64,000 nucleotides of DNA from Arthrobacter silviterrae (GTDB lineage Bacteria > Actinomycetota > Actinomycetes > Actinomycetales > Micrococcaceae): contig NZ_JAAKZI010000022.1 in the NCBI RefSeq assembly GCF_011045165.1, forward strand, positions 1 through 64,000. The letters run 5' to 3'. The notes beneath the pieces are model-generated. The model saw only the letters and a list, made by a program, of their open reading frames with translations. It made no database searches and had not been told where the DNA came from. Shown here one piece after another: positions 55,727 through 64,000 of this stretch. The first letter of the stretch is position 1. Every line of letters starts with the position of its first letter. The translations under genes and the position numbers were made by a program.

Positions 55727-55815
55727 CTAAAAGCCCCCCGGTGGGGTAACGTGGCTCACATCAGGGCTGGAGGCGGGCAGTCGTGCACGTTTCCCGAAAC
55801 GATGAGGAGATCTCA

Positions 55816-56354
<539 letters not shown>

Positions 56355-56358
<4 letters not shown>

Positions 56359-58739
56359 CCGCCACGGCAGAAACCCGGCCCGAGGTTGGCACGGCCCGCC
56401 TGCGCAAGGAGGACGCGCACCTGATCACTGGCCGGTCCCGCTTCACGGACAACATGGTGCTGCCGGGCATGCTGCACCTGGCCATGGTCCGCAGCCCCTT
56501 CGCCCATGCCAGGATCACCGCCATTGACGTCTCCGCAGCCAAGGCCTCCCCCGGTGTTTTCGCCGTGCTGACCGGCGCCGACGTTGCCGGGGAGCAGGGG
56601 AGCCTGCCGAACGCCTGGCCGATCACCCCGGACCAAAAGGCGCCCGCCCACCCGGCCATCGCGGTGGACGAGGTGGCTTTTGCCGGGGAGGTTGTGGCCG
56701 TCGTGATTGCCCGCAGCGTGGCCGCCGCCCGGGACGCCGTCGAACTGGTGGACGTTGACTATGAGGAGCTGCCCGTGGTCATGGACCTGGAGGAGGCTGC
56801 CACGGACAAGGTGCTGGCGCACACGTCACTGGAGTCCAACAAGTCCGCCACGTGGGTGTTTGACTCCGGTGAGGCCGGCACCGGAACGGCCATTGCGGAC
56901 GCACTGGCCAACTCCGATGTGGTCGTGGAGCGCACCCTGTACCAGCAGCGGCTCATCCCCGCGTTCATGGAACCGCGGTCCATCGTGGTCGACCCCACCG
57001 GCCAGCAGATCACCATGTGGAGCGCCACCCAGATCCCCCACATCCTGCGGCTCATGCTGGCACTGACGCTGGGCATCCCCGAAAGCAAGCTGCGCGTCGT
57101 GGCCCCGGACGTGGGCGGCGGATTTGGCGGCAAGCTGCAGGTCACCCCGGAAGAGGTCATCACCCTGCTGGCGGCCCGGCGCATGGGCAAGCCGGTCAAG
57201 TACACCGAGACCCGCAGTGAATCCCTGCAGGCGGGGCACCACGGCCGCGCACAGGTGCAGCGGCTGAAGATCGGCGCCACGAAGGACGGCACTGTCACGG
57301 GCCTGCACGTGGACCTGCTGGCAGACATGGGCGCCTACCTGGGCCTGGTCACCTCCGGCGTCCCCATCCTGGGTGCGTTCATGTACAACTCCATCTACAA
57401 GTTCCCCTCGTACCACTTCGAGTGCCACAACATTTTCACGAACAAGGCGTGGACGGACGCCTACCGCGGCGCCGGGCGGCCGGAAGCCACGTTCGCCATT
57501 GAGCGGATGATGGACGAGCTCGCGGTTGAGCTGAACATGGACCCGCTGGAACTGCGCGAGAAGAACTGGATCAAGCACGACGAGTTCCCGTTCGCCACCG
57601 TCGCAGGGCTGGAGTACGACACCGGCAACTACGAGGCCGCCACGGCGAAGGCAGTGGAGCTTTTCGGCTACGAGGAACTGCGTGCCGAGCAAAAGCGCCG
57701 CCGCGACGCCAAAGAGAAGGTGCAGCTTGGCATCGGGGTCTCCACGTTCACGGAGATGTGCGGACTGGCCCCGTCAAGGGTGCTGGGTTCGCTGAGCTAC
57801 GGGGCCGGAGGCTGGGAACATGCCCAAGTGCGGGTGCTGCCCACAGGCAATGTGGAAGTTGTCACAGGCTCATCGGCGCACGGGCAGGGCCACGAAACGG
57901 CCTGGAGCCAGCTGGTGGCCGACCGTTTGGGCGTGCCGTTTGAAAACGTTGAGGTACTTCACGGCGACACGCAGGTGTCCCAGAGGGGCCTGGACACCTA
58001 CGGCTCCCGTTCACTCTCCGTGGGCGGGATGGCAGTGCTGGCCGCGGCGGACAAGGTCATTGAGAAGGCCAAGGTCATTGCCGCGCACCTGATGGAGGCC
58101 AGCGAGGACGACCTTGAATTCACCAACGGATCGTTCACCGTCAAGGGCACGGACCAGTCAACCGCGTTGGGCGAAATTGCCCTGGCGGTATTCGCCGCGC
58201 ACAACTTGCCCGACGGCGTGGAGCCCAACCTGGATTCCGAGGCCACCTTTGATCCGGTGAACTTCTCCTTCCCGCACGGCACCCACCTGGCGGCCATGGA
58301 GGTGGACACGGAAACCGGCGAGGTCAACGTCCTCAAATATGTCTGCGTCGATGACGTCGGGGTGGTGGTCAATCCGATGCTCGTGGAAGGCCAGGTGCAT
58401 GGCGGCCTGGCCCAGGGCATCGCCCAGGCCCTGTATGAGGAAGCCGTCTACGACGACGCAGGCACCTTGGTGACCGGTTCCTTTGTGGACTACCTGGTCC
58501 CCAGTGCCCCGGACCTGCCGCACTACATCACTGACCGCACCGAAACCCGGGCCACCAGCAACCAGCTGGGTGCCAAGGGTGTTGGCGAGGCGGGCACCAT
58601 CGCCTCCACGCCGGCCATTGTCAACGGCATACTTGACGCCGTGCGCCACCTGGGCGTGAAGGACATCAAGATGCCGTGCACGCCCTCCCGGGTGTGGCAC
58701 GCCCTGCAGGAAGCCGAGACCACCGGAGGTGTGCAATGA
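56355..58739 (+). CDS. coxL: Aerobic CO dehydrogenase-type large subunit, form II (Mo hydroxylase)
   Basis: 794 residues. The active-site loop reads AYRGAGR (369-375), the form II (BMS-type) signature, not the AYxCSFR of true form I carbon monoxide dehydrogenases, so the cysteine that holds the copper is absent. [24 protein letters not shown] and the catalytic glutamate E745 in GVGEAG are all present. The substrate may be CO poorly or another aromatic or aldehyde compound. Overlaps coxS and coxM by 4 bases each. Confidence 0.95.
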
Positions 58740-59599
58740 TCCCGAGCGCATTTGACTATGCAGCCCCAGCCACCGTGGAGGAGGCCCTGGGACTCCTGTC
58801 CAAGGCGGCCGCCGACGGAAATGACGTCAAGGTGCTGGCGGGCGGGCAAAGCCTGATCCCGGTCATGAAGCTGCGCATGGCCGATCCCTCCCTGGTTGTT
58901 GACCTGGGCAGGATCGGCGGGCTCTCCGGCGTCACCGACAATGGCAACTCCTTGGTGATCGGTGCCATGACGCCCCACCACGTGATGGCCACCGACCCAC
59001 TGGTGGCCCAACACCTGCCGCTGCTGCAGCAGGCCGCGGCCACGGTGGCCGACCCGCAAGTGCGGCACCGCGGAACCTTTGGCGGCGCCCTGGTCCACGC
59101 GGACCCTGCCGGCGACATGCCGGCTCCCGTGCTGGCCACCGGAGCGACGTTTGTGCTTGCAGGGCCCGGCGGGGAGCGGCGCGTTGATGCTGCCGACTTC
59201 TTCCAGGGCTACTTCACCACGGCCGTGGAGGAGGGCGAGATCCTCACCAGCATCGAGGTGCCCAAGTACACCGGATGGGGTTCGCACTACGAAAAGTTCA
59301 CCCGCGTGGCACAGCAGTGGTCCATCGTGGCCGTGGCCGCGCTGGTCCGGGTGGAGGGCGGCGGCATTGCCGAGGCCCGGATCGGGCTGACGAACATGGC
59401 CAGCACCCCGCTGCGCGCCACAGGGGTGGAGGCGGCCCTGGCCGGGGCACCCCTGACCGTCGAGGCCATCACGGCTGCGTGCTCCCATGCGGGCGAAGGC
59501 ACCGAGCCGGCCAGCGACCTCAATGGTGACGCCGGATACCGCAAGCACCTGGCCCAGGTGCTTGCCACGCGGGCCGTGCTGGCCGCCGTCGGACTCTAG
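58736..59599 (+). CDS. coxM: Aerobic CO dehydrogenase-type medium subunit, FAD-binding
   Basis: 287 residues; the ATG at 58736 overlaps the coxL stop and has GGAGGTG upstream. The FAD-binding motif AGGQSLIPVMKLR (residues about 36-48) and the second motif TFGGALVHADPAGDMP are diagnostic. Together with CoxS and CoxL it forms the hydroxylase. Confidence 0.95.
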   Translation: MIPSAFDYAAPATVEEALGLLSKAAADGNDVKVLAGGQSLIPVMKLRMADPSLVVDLGRIGGLSGVTDNGNSLVIGAMTPHHVMATDPLVAQHLPLLQQAAATVADPQVRHRGTFGGALVHADPAGDMPAPVLATGATFVLAGPGGERRVDAADFFQGYFTTAVEEGEILTSIEVPKYTGWGSHYEKFTRVAQQWSIVAVAALVRVEGGGIAEARIGLTNMASTPLRATGVEAALAGAPLTVEAITAACSHAGEGTEPASDLNGDAGYRKHLAQVLATRAVLAAVGL

Positions 59600-59620
59600 G
59601 AACAGGACTGAAAGGCAGCG

Positions 59621-60355
59621 ATGGAACTCAAGCACCACTTCACCGTCCCCAGTTCGCTGGCGGAAACATGGCACTCCTTCAACCAGCTGGAGGACATTGC
59701 CCCCTGCTTCCCGGGGGCCGTGCTGACCTCCGTGGAGGGGGATGCCTTCACCGGCACCGTCAAGGTCAAGCTGGGCCCAATTGCCATGATGTATGCAGGC
59801 ACTGGCCAGTTTCTCTCCCGTGACGACGCCACCCACACTGTGGTCATCGAGGCTCAGGGCAAGGACAAGCGGGGCAACGGCACTGCCGGGGCCACCGTGA
59901 CGGCCGTGCTGTCGGACGACGGCGGCGGCGGAACCACCGTTGACGTCTCCACCGACATGAACGTCACGGGCAAGCCGGCCCAGTTTGGCCGCGGAGTCAT
60001 CCAGGACATCTCGGACAAGCTGCTGGAGCAGTTTGTGCAATGTGTCATCGGCAAGGCCGGCCAGGCTGCCGAGCCGCCGGAATCCGAACCAACGGAGCCG
60101 CCGGAATTCGAACCGCCGGAGCCTGCGGAATTCGAGCCACCGGAGCCAGCCGGAGCCGGGACTGATACTCCTAAAGCCGCCGCTCCCAAGCCCGCCGCGA
60201 AACACCTGCCGCCAGCGGCACCGGCGGCCGAGCTTGACCTGGGTGCGGCCGTGTGGCCGGTGCTGGCAAAACGCTTTGCGCCGGCCCTGCTCGGGATCCT
60301 GGGCGCCCTGGCACTGGCCGTGTGCGTGGCCAGGCGGAAGCGGCGCCGCGGATAG
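59621..60355 (+). CDS. coxG: CoxG-like SRPBCC protein with C-terminal membrane anchor
   Basis: 244 residues. The N-terminal SRPBCC/CoxG domain (1-150) begins MELKHHFTVPSSLAETWHSF. A Pro/Glu-rich linker (about residues 150-200) with imperfect repeats such as EFEPPEPAEFEPPEP leads to one hydrophobic helix (about 215-237) and a basic KRRRG end. CoxG proteins are linked to membrane recruitment of CO dehydrogenase. This design fits a tethered ligand-binding domain on the inner face. Confidence 0.9.
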   Translation: MELKHHFTVPSSLAETWHSFNQLEDIAPCFPGAVLTSVEGDAFTGTVKVKLGPIAMMYAGTGQFLSRDDATHTVVIEAQGKDKRGNGTAGATVTAVLSDDGGGGTTVDVSTDMNVTGKPAQFGRGVIQDISDKLLEQFVQCVIGKAGQAAEPPESEPTEPPEFEPPEPAEFEPPEPAGAGTDTPKAAAPKPAAKHLPPAAPAAELDLGAAVWPVLAKRFAPALLGILGALALAVCVARRKRRRG

Positions 60356-60415: not shown

Positions 60416-60655
60416 TTAGTTGACGTCGTACTCGCGGTAGGTGTGTCCGTCGAGGGCGTGCATCACAATGTGGGAGGGCCGCTCGCCACACTTCATGTGT
60501 GCGGCCGCGACGGCCTCCTTTTGCGTGTGGAACTGCTCGTGCAAGGTGGTGCGGAACTGGTGGAGCTCCCACTTCATTCCGTCGGCACCCTCGCAGGGAC
60601 GGACATGGTAGACAAAGCGGTGGACGGCCTTCTTCTCAAGCGTTGCAGTGGACAT
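60416..60655 (-). CDS. Small DUF2188-like hypothetical protein
   Basis: 79 residues from the ATG at 60653-60655 (MSTATLEKKAVHRFVYHV), with GGAGGA 5-6 nt upstream; the longer frame is not favoured. The pattern of a strand, a WELHQF core, FHTQKEAVAAAHM helix and SHIVMHALDGHTYREYD resembles DUF2188 proteins. Function unknown. Confidence 0.7.
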   Translation of the reverse strand: MSTATLEKKAVHRFVYHVRPCEGADGMKWELHQFRTTLHEQFHTQKEAVAAAHMKCGERPSHIVMHALDGHTYREYDVN

Positions 60656-60796
60656 GGAATCCTCCTCCAGATTGGTCAACGTGCTTGCACAGGGCCCCAC
60701 CGCTCCCATTGAAATGCAGTTGTTGCCCTGACTCCAGTTCACTCCTGCGGGCGGTGATTGGCAAGCAGTGATTTCCACTCGCGGGCACCTGTGGAG

Positions 60797-61519
60797 CTAC
60801 ACGGGATCAAGCCCGGCAGAGTGGTGGAAAACTTCGGCACAGCTACCTCGGGCAGCCAGGCGCCGGAATTCTGCCGGTTCCAGGGCAGCGGCGCCCGCCG
60901 GGAGGCAGGCCAGCAACGGAATGGGCAACGCCTCCAGGAAGTCGAGGTTGCTGCGCTCCACCATGCTTGGCTGGTCCGGCAGGGAGCCCACCACCAGCCC
61001 GGCGGCCGTGAGCCCCCGGTGAGTGAGGGCCTCCAGGGTCAGCATGGTGTGGTTGAGTGTGCCCAGTCCGCTGCGGCACACCACCACCACTCCCCCTCCG
61101 AGCGCTGCGGCCAGGTCCGCGACGGTGTGCCCATCGCCGTCGAGCTCCACCAGCAGCCCGCCGGAACCTTCCACGAGCACGTGGCGGTGGGTGGCGGCCA
61201 GCCTCCGGACGGCTGCTGCGTGGTCCGCCAGCGTGGGCAGGATCCGCCCCTCCAGGGCGGCCGCCGGTACGGGCGCCATGGGCCGGGCCAGCCGGATGCC
61301 TTCCTCCGCCGTTGCCGCACCGGACAGCCGCTTAACTTCCGCTGCGTCGCCTGCTTCGTTGCCGGCAACACCTGTTTGAACCGGCTTGTAGACGGCCACC
61401 GAGTGGCCGTCGGCGAGCAGTGCGGAGGCGAGGGCCGCCGTCGTGACCGTCTTGCCGACGTCGGTGTCCGTGCCGGTGACCACGGTGACGGCGGAAAAAT
61501 GCAGGGGCAGGCGGATCAT
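60797..61519 (-). CDS. bioD: Dethiobiotin synthase
   Basis: 240 residues. ATP-dependent closure of the ureido ring of 7,8-diaminononanoate with CO2 to give dethiobiotin. The P-loop GTDTDVGKT is at 16-24, KPVQTG follows near residue 45, and EGSGGLLVEL is the second conserved motif. The ATG at 61517-61519 (AAAGGA upstream) overlaps the P450 stop. Confidence 0.95.
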   Translation of the reverse strand: MIRLPLHFSAVTVVTGTDTDVGKTVTTAALASALLADGHSVAVYKPVQTGVAGNEAGDAAEVKRLSGAATAEEGIRLARPMAPVPAAALEGRILPTLADHAAAVRRLAATHRHVLVEGSGGLLVELDGDGHTVADLAAALGGGVVVVCRSGLGTLNHTMLTLEALTHRGLTAAGLVVGSLPDQPSMVERSNLDFLEALPIPLLACLPAGAAALEPAEFRRLAARGSCAEVFHHSAGLDPV

Positions 61520-62601
61520 GGTGAGGTCCTTTCGGCGGTGACGGACAGGGGTGTCTGGAAAGAGAGCAGGCGCAGCCACGCGGGTTCCGGGCCGCTCAGG
61601 CGCAGGGCGGGCAGTGCCCGCGCGGCGGCCTGCACCACCAGCACGGTCTCCAGCTCGGCCAGTTTGGCCCCGAGGCAGCGGTGCAGCCCGTGGCCGAAAG
61701 CCAGCGAATAGGCCGTGGGGGCAACGTCCACCGGGTGCCGGCCGGAGAGTTCAAGCAGGATTTCGGCACCCGCCGGCAACGCCGCGCCGTCCAGGACAGT
61801 GTCACGAAGTGCAGACCGGCGCCAGGTGTGGACCGAGGATTCCGTGGCCAGGACGTGGCGCACATGGGCCCTGGCGGCGTCCGCGTCGGCAAGGTCAGCC
61901 CACCGCCGGCCGTCGGGGCGGCCCCGGGTTCCTGCTTCGATGCCCCGGTACAGCGCCGTGTTGATCAGCTGGGAGGTGGTTTCCTGCCCCGCGATGACCA
62001 AAAAGTACCCGAGCGAGCACGTTTCGGCCGTGGACAGCCCGGCCTCCTGCAGCACGCCAAAGAGCGATTGGCTGCCCTTGCTGGCCAGCACCTCCGCCCG
62101 CAGCCAGGCATAAAAGTCGGCGGCGCTGCGGGCCAGTTCCAGCTGCCGGTCGGCGTCAGGCCAGCCCCAAAACAGTTCCAGCGAGTCCCGGCTCCACTGC
62201 TTGAGCACCTCCAGCGGCGGGTTGTCCTGGCCGGTGAGCCCGGCCATGATGACTGGCGGAACGTGCCGGGCCAGCGAGTCGGCCAGGTCCACTGGGCCGT
62301 TTTCCAGCGCTGCGGCGGTGGCGGCCAGCCGCTGCCGGGCCAGTTCCTTGACGCGGGGCCCGACGGCGGCAACCTTGGCCGGCGTAAAGAAGCGGCCCAC
62401 CAGCGTCCGCACCGCCCGGTGCTGCTCCCCGGATGCCGAGGCGAGCACCGGCGGCAGGGCAAACCGGGCCCGGCTCAGGATCCTCAGGGCGGCCGGGGTC
62501 AGCGGCACCACGGAGGTCAGGGCGTTGCTGGGGGCAAAGTCGTCCGTGCGGCGCATCGCCTCCCGGACCACGGCGGGGCTGCCGACCACGTGGTAGCTCA
62601 T
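61516..62601 (-). CDS. Cytochrome P450 in the biotin operon, short and lacking ExxR
   Basis: 361 residues. The haem-thiolate motif FGHGLHRCLG (302-311, C309) and the I-helix AGQETTS (204-210) are present. The K-helix ExxR, which normally precedes an ESPV-type motif, is HVLA here (H249-A252, followed by TESSVHTWRR). The first 40-50 residues of typical P450s are missing; the start is fixed by overlap with bioF and a stop upstream. In the bio context it may supply a pimelate precursor as BioI does, but this is inference. Confidence 0.9.
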   Translation of the reverse strand: MSYHVVGSPAVVREAMRRTDDFAPSNALTSVVPLTPAALRILSRARFALPPVLASASGEQHRAVRTLVGRFFTPAKVAAVGPRVKELARQRLAATAAALENGPVDLADSLARHVPPVIMAGLTGQDNPPLEVLKQWSRDSLELFWGWPDADRQLELARSAADFYAWLRAEVLASKGSQSLFGVLQEAGLSTAETCSLGYFLVIAGQETTSQLINTALYRGIEAGTRGRPDGRRWADLADADAARAHVRHVLATESSVHTWRRSALRDTVLDGAALPAGAEILLELSGRHPVDVAPTAYSLAFGHGLHRCLGAKLAELETVLVVQAAARALPALRLSGPEPAWLRLLSFQTPLSVTAERTSP

Positions 62602-63767
62602 GACAGGGTCCTTTCCCCGAATGCATGGACGGTTGTGGCGTGGGTGAGCGTCCCTTCGACGGCCCGCCGGACCAGCGCCCCCGCACGTGCAATGCCGCCG
62701 GGAGACAGCCCGGCGCTGGCAGCCAGCCGCAAGCGGGAGATCCCGTCCGGGACACTCGGCGGGCGGAAGCAGCCCGCCAGCACACCATGGGAGCGCAGGC
62801 TCGCGGCAGCCGCGGCAGCGGCCCCGGCGGAAGCCATGGGGACCGACTGGACAGCGCCGGGCGAGAGCTCAATCATGCACAGCTCCGCCAGCAGCTGTGC
62901 ATTCCGGTGGAGTGCGGCGGCGAGCTCGGGCTCCGCCAGGACGATGGCGGCCGCCGTTGCCGCGGCCGCGGCGGAAGCAGGGGCCAGGGCCGTATCGAAA
63001 ATGAAGGAACGGGCCGTGTTGACCAGGTGCTCCCGCAGCACCGCCGGTCCCAGGACGGCGCCGCCCTGTGCGCCCAGCGCCTTCGACAGGGTCACCGTGA
63101 GCACCACATGGCGGGCACCCGCCAGCCCGGCGGCATGGACCGCACCCCTGCCGCCGCCGGCAACGCCGATCCCGTGGGCCTCGTCCACCAGGAGCCAGGC
63201 GTCGTGGTCGGCGCACGCGGCCGCGAGTGCCGTGAGGCAGGCGGCGTCGCCCAGCACGGAGTACAGGGACTCAACAACCACCACGGCGCGTGGCTGGTTC
63301 CTTTCGGCCAGCGCGGTCCGGACAGCGGCCGTGTCGCCGTGGGGCACCGTCACGACGGGTGAACGCGACAACCGGGCCGCGTCCAGCACGGACGCATGCA
63401 CATGCGCGTCCAGGACCAGCAGCGTGCCGGGGCCCCCAAGGGCCGTCAACACGCCCAGGTTCGCCGTGTAGCCGGAGGAAAACGCCAGGGCTGACTGCGC
63501 CCCCGTGAGACGGCACAGCTGTTCCTCCAGGTGGACGTGGACAGGCAGGGTGCCGGTCACAACACGGGAGGCCCGGGCGCCTGCGCCGTGTCGTTTCAGT
63601 GCCTCGCAGGCAGCGGCCACCACGCGGGGGTCGCGGGACAGCCCCAGGTAGTCATTGGAGGCGAGGTCGAGAAGCGGCTCCGCCGGGACGGCGTTTCGGA
63701 CCAGGCCGCGGCGCGCGCGGACGTCGGCGCGGCCCTGCAGCCACTCTTCCATGGCGGGGGCGCGCAT
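62598..63767 (-). CDS. bioF: 8-amino-7-oxononanoate synthase
   Basis: 389 residues, PLP-dependent condensation of pimeloyl-ACP/CoA with alanine. The ATG at 63765-63767 (MRAPAMEEW) overlaps the bioA stop. DLASNDYLGLSRD, DEAHGIG (195-201) and the PLP lysine K229 in TLSKALGAQGG are present. Overlaps the P450 gene by 4 bases. Confidence 0.95.
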   Translation of the reverse strand: MRAPAMEEWLQGRADVRARRGLVRNAVPAEPLLDLASNDYLGLSRDPRVVAAACEALKRHGAGARASRVVTGTLPVHVHLEEQLCRLTGAQSALAFSSGYTANLGVLTALGGPGTLLVLDAHVHASVLDAARLSRSPVVTVPHGDTAAVRTALAERNQPRAVVVVESLYSVLGDAACLTALAAACADHDAWLLVDEAHGIGVAGGGRGAVHAAGLAGARHVVLTVTLSKALGAQGGAVLGPAVLREHLVNTARSFIFDTALAPASAAAAATAAAIVLAEPELAAALHRNAQLLAELCMIELSPGAVQSVPMASAGAAAAAAASLRSHGVLAGCFRPPSVPDGISRLRLAASAGLSPGGIARAGALVRRAVEGTLTHATTVHAFGERTLS

Positions 63768-64000
63768 CAGCCGTGCACCCGGGCCACAGCCGTGCAAAGC
63801 CCGGCACCGATCGCGGCCACATCGCCGGCACTGCTGACATAGGGCGGCATGGTGTAGACAAGATCGCGGAATGGCCGCACCCACACGCCGTGTTCGACGG
63901 CGGCGCGCGTCACGGCGGCCACGTCCACGGGCACGTTCAACTGAATGACGCCGACGCCGCCCAGCACCCGGACATGGGCCACGGAGGACAGCCCGGCGGC
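63767..64000 (-). CDS. bioA: Adenosylmethionine-8-amino-7-oxononanoate aminotransferase, C-terminal part
   Basis: About 77 codons of the C terminus are visible; the gene continues beyond the window. The final region [34 protein letters not shown] matches the end of BioA, which makes 7,8-diaminononanoate. It is upstream of bioF on the same strand, overlapping by one base (TGATG). Confidence 0.88.

Follow-up and report, generated by a model that had tools for sequence, protein, structure and literature searches.

In Bacillus subtilis a cytochrome P450 gene, coding for BioI (CYP107H1), is situated in the biotin operon. BioI is described to convert acyl-ACP to pimeloyl-ACP (PMC12915131, PMC11089781), and an analogous reaction is proposed below for a family of P450-type proteins; BioI is furthermore stated to be dispensable in B. 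subtilis and its product not to be used by the BioF of this organism (PMC7645780). B. subtilis also has BioW, which was positive in our control search. Natural BioWF fusions, in which a pimeloyl supplier is joined to BioF, are known (PMC9544090); in these the supplier is an ATP-dependent ligase forming the N-terminal domain, whereas in the fusions reported here the partner of BioF is a P450 in C-terminal position. A P450 together with a BioF-like enzyme has been found in Streptomyces to yield a KAPA-type aminoketone: deletion of mkpG (BioI-like P450) or mkpD (BioF-like) abolishes alpha-methyl-KAPA. In contrast to the operons treated here, these genes belong to a separate seven-gene metabolite cluster, and MkpG is described as a homologue of BioI (PMC13336041).

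Our search of the literature on P450s in biotin synthesis, P450 motifs and activators, with subscription papers and preprints outside its scope, returned no description of the family treated here. One P450 census set aside sequences without one of the P450 motifs as fragments or pseudo-P450s (PMC6408508). This filter, together with the absence of a match to the Pfam p450 model at 0.001 in three of the six BioF-P450 fusions scanned (L058, L073, L081), may be the reason why no such description was found.

The P450-type gene and its operon

The window, that is the whole stretch of 64,000 nucleotides analysed here, carries at its end bioD, a P450-type gene, bioF and the 3' end of bioA (Table 1). 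On the contig the gene order is bioB-bioA-bioF-P450-bioD, accompanied by a divergent TetR/BioQ-type gene (locus L063). The earlier note had assigned the P450 gene to the operon on account of four-base overlaps with bioF and bioD; reading of the sequence gave an ATGA overlap on both sides, and bioA and bioF overlap as well (TGATG at 63765-63769). The search in other genomes for the order bioA-bioF-P450-bioD, which the note had suggested, was successful: across the loci the order is either A-F-P450-D or A-F-D-P450. The best NCBIfam equivalog for the bioF gene is bioF with 324 bits, which is under its own cut-off of 426 bits.

Table 1. Positions of genes, overlaps and motifs in the window
Feature	Position	Strand	Evidence
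bioD, dethiobiotin synthase	60797..61519	-	TIGR00347, 131.7 bits (cut-off 83.3)
ATGA overlap, P450 stop / bioD start	61516..61519	-	read from sequence
P450-type protein, 361 aa	61516..62601	-	ORF; Pfam p450; phmmer to solved P450s, E 7e-26; orthologues
Haem loop FGHGLHRCLG, residues 302-311, thiolate Cys309 (codon 61675-61677)	61669..61698	-	Cys in 89/89
Meander deletion site (third triad arginine), residues 288-299	61705..61740	-	alignments to solved P450s and 12 ordinary P450s
TWRR, residues 259-262	61816..61827	-	WRR in 90/90 readable sequences
HVLA at ExxR position, residues 249-252	61846..61857	-	alignments with P450s and family
I-helix motif AGQETT, residues 204-209	61975..61992	-	T208 in 89/89, E207 in 86/89 readable sequences
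ATGA overlap, bioF stop / P450 start	62598..62601	-	read from sequence
bioF	62598..63767	-	TIGR00858, E 9.6e-97; start ATG read at 63767
bioA 3' end, gene running on past window	63767..64000	-	stop TGA 63767-63769

The P450 reading frame is intact, running from ATG to TGA without internal stops. No in-frame ATG, GTG or TTG precedes it before a stop is reached, and the short N-terminus is thus not the result of a mis-called start. With 28.3 bits (cut-off 22.8) the protein is a homologue of the P450 superfamily (PF00067). It is the sole match to itself in its own genome at E <= 0.001, and a whole-genome Pfam search found zero P450s, also missing the one in the window.

The nearest solved sequences are 5gwe/5xjn (phmmer with the window protein, E 7e-26), 6ro8 (RhF) and 6kbh. 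We take 5gwe/5xjn to be CreJ of Corynebacterium glutamicum and 6kbh to be of CYP116B type; all of these presumably catalyse a chemistry other than that proposed for the family. The WRR segment is found in 5gwe and 6kbh. In contrast to the window protein these P450s are full-length and contain ExxR, and 5gwe in addition has the ANRD meander. BioI (3ejb) is not the nearest relative: with the family profile it appears in the 22nd row (E 4e-32), whereas 5gwe and 5xjn reach 3e-57 and 4e-57. Unlike BioI, the family is devoid of the E-R-R triad and of the N-terminal region, and some of its members are fused to BioF.

Downstream of bioD, the window encodes a small DUF2188 protein (60416-60661, minus strand). 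The window also contains a CO-dehydrogenase-type gene set (55783-60355), which comprises an ORF resembling the small subunit by eye (55783-56358), the molybdopterin subunit (56355-58739), a further ORF (58676-59599) and CoxG (59621-60355), which has a proline/glutamate-rich repeat and a C-terminal hydrophobic stretch.

Motifs kept and missing in the family

Motifs were counted in 91 distinct sequences out of 114, and 89 of these are readable across the I- and K-helices (parts are wanting in L155 and in the pieces L019/L022). As the earlier note had observed, the window protein possesses the haem-cysteine and I-helix motifs. Its haem-thiolate loop conforms to FxxGxHxCxG and AGQETT provides the acid-alcohol motif of the superfamily; both the cysteine and the threonine are invariant in the 89 sequences.

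The ExxR motif of the K-helix is normally near-universal in P450s and has a stabilising role. In the window protein H249-V-L-A252 stands opposite ExxR in the alignment to solved P450s (HVLATESSVHTWRR versus EVLRYSGSIVGWRR), and the family alignment bears out this claim of the note too. A second loss had escaped the note: the meander with the triad arginine (ANRD...FD..R) is gone, the deletion lying between residues 286-287 (SG) and 300-303 (LAFG). With HVLA in place of ExxR and the meander deleted, none of the three E-R-R triad residues is left. An ExxR at another place in the protein, which the note would have held against its reading, was not seen in the alignments to solved P450s or orthologues.

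The family profile begins at residue 35 of 5gwe, 48 of 6ldl, 63 of 6ro8 and 75 of 6kbh, which puts the N-terminal loss at some 35-75 residues in comparison with the nearest solved relatives. The N-terminal shortening stated by the note is correct.

Only six of the 89 family sequences contain ExxR (L052, L055, L058, L132, L135, L137), whereas ExxR and meander are present in 12 of 12 ordinary P450s aligned together with the family. The meander region of the family is short or consists of non-conserved filler; within the 91 sequences a meander-like stretch occurs in L135 only, and it is also present in L184 outside this set. Some Kribbella members have ExxR and lack the meander. The note had compared the protein with CYP157 from Streptomyces, and both indeed have an incomplete ExxR. 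CYP157, however, keeps the glutamate and has lost the arginine (EVLW/EQSLW), and it is linked to conservons (PMC3599690). The window protein has H..A at these positions, glutamate and arginine both vary in the family, and besides having lost the meander its members are encoded in bio operons; the comparison with CYP157 holds in part only.

Orthologues are present in 95 of 395 genomes of the bacterial family of the window, which to judge from named relatives is Micrococcaceae (E <= 1e-40), in 20 of 23 genomes of the same genus and in 3 of 396 genomes of a phylum sample (E <= 1e-36), the window's own genome counted. A wider scan gave at least 80 loci, at least 39 of them being whole or nearly whole family members, and among the matches listed the members come from Arthrobacter, Specibacter, Paenarthrobacter, Sinomonas, Cryobacterium, Paeniglutamicibacter, Glutamicibacter, Kribbella and Propioniferax. 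All 46 rows of set A2 match Pfam p450 at E <= 0.001.

Trees were built from 70 and from 64 chosen rows. In the latter the family together with L184 forms one side of a branch with a support of 100/100. L184 and L135 branch near the base of the family on long branches, and both keep ExxR and a longer meander. As these basal sequences still have both elements and some Kribbella proteins have ExxR without the meander, the loss of the triad tentatively looks derived, and the meander may have been lost first.

We considered whether the gene could be a decaying or mis-assembled P450 remnant. The protein is truncated and poor in motifs, it matches Pfam weakly and it was missed in the whole-genome search, all of which would fit such a remnant. 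The gene has no stops, however, and is present in 20 of the 23 genomes of the genus, and the haem site is invariant while ExxR varies. The dN/dS values between the window and eleven loci (L079 and L103 being from the same genome) are 0.10-0.40 for the P450; bioF, with two saturated pairs, gives 0.16-0.32 and bioD 0.23-0.42. The P450 is under purifying selection, with dN/dS near those of bioF and bioD. A pseudogene was ruled out on the grounds of the genus-wide presence, the dN/dS values and the invariant haem site, and we give hardly any credence to the remnant explanation as a whole. With orthologues of the same anatomy and purifying selection, the truncated, triad-less form is more than a chance occurrence.

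Association with bioF and the other pimeloyl sources

Among the 395 genomes, 94 have both the P450 and BioF, one has the P450 only, 21 have BioF only and 279 have neither (best five candidates per genome scored for the P450 and best four for BioF). The co-occurrence is highly significant (Fisher p 7e-69, a statistic that ignores shared ancestry). In the single P450-only genome, G123, the P450 starts 98 bases from a contig end. In the genus of the window 20 of 23 genomes have both genes and 3 have neither. bioF is situated upstream of the P450 on the same contig and strand in 94 of 94 genomes, at less than 300 bases in 75 and at 300-1000 bases in 19.

The flanks were read for 79 whole or nearly whole loci, made up of 40 family-genome loci (40 of the 95 P450 genomes) and 39 among the matches listed, some genomes occurring twice. 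All 79 have an adjacent bio gene, bioF in 77 and bioD in 78, and the few missing neighbours are explained by contig ends. L155 and L184 are outside this count: L155, a fragmentary family member, is found at the edge of a contig, and its 8 kb contain no bio gene; in the basal L184 the distance to bioD and bioF, which sit on the other strand, is 2.2 kb. No bio gene was found near 41 other loci among the matches listed, namely 40 P450s at 24-32% identity and L155. ORF clustering of the 40 family-genome loci returned the P450 as the one extra recurring same-strand gene besides bioB, A, F and D, with the exception of antisense shadow ORFs, the TetR gene and a small ORF after a second bioB type.

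This second type of bioB, which shares about 31-33% identity with that of the window, was seen in L111, L113, L117, L119, L127, L141 and L190. Between it and bioA a small cysteine-rich ORF is found (FCGHCG...PPRYCAHCRRRMKVQVTPLGW and similar, partial in some stretches), which by eye resembles BsaP as described in PMC11099021. On a conjugative Arthrobacter plasmid (NZ_CP084557.1, 29658-35334; L190, 9659-15335) bioB, bioA, bioF, bioD and the P450 lie between two IS110 genes, and here as well a small BsaP-like ORF, which is not among the genes listed for the plasmid, follows bioB. Plasmid pYJN5-2 (NZ_CP053546.1; L187, 7983-9125) has a family P450 of 51.6% identity with no bio gene within 17 kb; genes for an M20 metallo-hydrolase, dihydropyrimidinase and alanine dehydrogenase are among its neighbours, and 6.5 kb away there is one for a biotin carboxylase.

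In seven loci (L052, L055, L057, L058, L073, L081 and L139) BioF and the P450 are fused, the P450 being C-terminal. The fusions measure 742-822 aa in the first six; L139 is from Propioniferax innocua. On the tree two changes are needed for the fusion, the forks concerned being weak, and a single origin is possible.

The fusions and the tight coupling to BioF also bear on the main alternative to an enzymatic function, that is, a non-catalytic P450-derived partner stabilising or activating BioF in the way EryCII and DesVIII act on glycosyltransferases. EryCII, a P450 homologue in which the fold is no longer complete, acts as an activator of its partner enzyme, and the N-terminal region, ExxR and meander have all been lost here; one fusion, L052, weakly matches the activator model TIGR04515 (52 bits, cut-off 343). 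Activators of the EryCII type, however, lack the haem cysteine (PMC3391682), whereas in the family Cys309 and the I-helix threonine are kept in 89 of 89 sequences. The protein is thus set apart from the TIGR04515 activators, and a non-catalytic activator of BioF is disfavoured; we regard it as unlikely.

The substrate of BioF is a pimeloyl thioester. Other sources of this compound were searched for. BioC over the cut-off was found in none of the 395 genomes (best six candidates per genome scored); among the 14 controls, 1 passed it. Nearly all genomes (393 of 395) do show weak matches at E <= 1e-10, and all 14 controls give weak ones too, so that a very diverged BioC may be present in these genomes. 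BioW was found in none of the 23 genomes of the same genus, the control search being positive in 2 of 14. By these two routes the seven-carbon source of biotin is left unexplained.

Of the 21 BioF-only genomes, 20 were inspected (G313 was left out): bioD follows bioF in 19, with no P450 in between. In G057 bioF is truncated and in G159 it has stops, while most of the loci of genus g6 are apparently intact. No substitute gene was recognised by eye at the 20 P450-less bioF loci, the neighbour sequences being viewed for six of them. BioW as a replacement for the P450 was rejected, as it was found in 0 of the 21 genomes. Diverged P450 copies were likewise discarded: none was clear, and the best candidates, from G301 and G149 (210 and 201 bits), score about like the ordinary P450 5gwe (197 bits). 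Operons of the type bioB-bioA-bioF-bioD with neither the P450 nor a detectable BioW are found at L083-L092, L096 and L099-L102. Accordingly, either the bio genes can persist without the P450 or the strains need an outside precursor; these strains may use such a precursor or another route (BioZ, BioE or BioH-type).

Possible role in pimeloyl supply

The function that we consider probable is that of a biotin-dedicated P450-type enzyme with a haem thiolate, most likely cleaving a fatty-acyl thioester to the pimeloyl thioester used by BioF. The mechanism is modelled on the BioI precedent, the need for both mkpG and mkpD in Streptomyces and the BioWF fusions. The P450 would bind a fatty-acyl thioester (acyl-ACP or acyl-CoA) and, with haem as cofactor and electrons from an external redox partner, would carry out haem-thiolate O2 chemistry. 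Oxidative C-C cleavage would then give pimeloyl thioester, which would be handed to BioF, translated next door and sometimes part of the same polypeptide. The protein would thereby play the part that BioI has in Bacillus, while coming from another branch of the P450s, one in which the N-terminal region with the A-helix, the ExxR motif and the meander have been lost. We infer that the P450 is needed for growth as far as biotin is concerned.

The earlier note had suggested a new P450 family for biotin precursor supply. A separate, biotin-devoted lineage is borne out by the 100/100 branch, by bioF lying upstream in 94 of 95 genomes, by the fusions and by the searches for BioC over the cut-off and BioW, which found neither; precursor supply is the interpretation that appears to fit best. 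Judged from the sequences, what speaks for pimeloyl supply is the upstream bioF in 94 of 94 genomes, the fusions in seven loci and the outcome of the BioC and BioW searches, to which the plasmid-borne biotin cassette with its P450, the invariant haem cysteine and I-helix threonine (89/89) and the selection close to that on bioF and bioD may be added. Counted against it are the 21 BioF-only genomes, the lack of a redox partner in the operon, the pYJN5-2 copy and L155 without bio genes, the dispensability of BioI in B. subtilis and the disuse of its product by BioF there, and the loss of the triad, which could result in weak or no haem binding.

As to the redox partner, no gene for one was found in the operon. 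A Flavodoxin_1 search gave no match, and the ferredoxin search, done with Fer4_15 only, gave one ferredoxin (G000:C24:18370-18573) beside an ORF resembling by eye a flavin subunit of NADH dehydrogenase. It was dismissed as a dedicated partner, there being no link to the P450 and the neighbouring ORF being apparently unrelated.

Several of these points could also mean that the protein is an active P450 at another biotin step, or one that forms a different product such as a modified KAPA-type compound or an oxidised by-product. The Streptomyces P450 and BioF-like enzymes yielding alpha-methyl-KAPA (PMC13336041), the orphan P450 on pYJN5-2 and the BioF genomes devoid of the P450 would agree with this. 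The operons, however, consist of ordinary bioB, A, F and D, the clustering of 40 loci having revealed no further same-strand gene that is common to many of them, and we hold this possibility to be slightly less likely still than the activation of BioF.

Going beyond the function itself, the family may quite possibly represent an undescribed actinobacterial route of pimeloyl supply, a reading that we put forward tentatively: an active triad-less thiolate-haem enzyme would have evolved apart from BioI and would pass its product on to BioF directly, and one BioF-P450 polypeptide would, in some genera, lead from acyl thioester to KAPA. The family is a direct, testable candidate for the seven-carbon supply of biotin, and the BioF-P450 fusions offer a ready-made system for substrate handover. 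A conserved P450 without the E-R-R triad also tests the purpose of the triad, and if the proposal is true the textbook ExxR filter would be wrong for a P450 of primary metabolism.

The note had also raised the possibility of a regulatory haem protein. A haem-based sensor tuning biotin synthesis to oxygen or haem would be in line with a haem site that is kept while the canonical stabilising triad is lost. Only P450 models match the protein, however, the fusion partner is an enzyme, and regulation seems to be provided for otherwise. A TetR gene resembling that of the window (TetR/BioQ-type) adjoins 20 of 40 loci, and a BioQ-type box, TGAAC-N3-GTTC (consensus as given in PMC3398298), is found ahead of bioB in 27 of 35 loci; the 515 kb as a whole contain 51 of these sites. 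A sensor function is therefore very improbable. On the contig of the window the box TGAACACTGTTC lies between bioB and the TetR gene, at about 11192 of L063 (contig about 66191, past the window).
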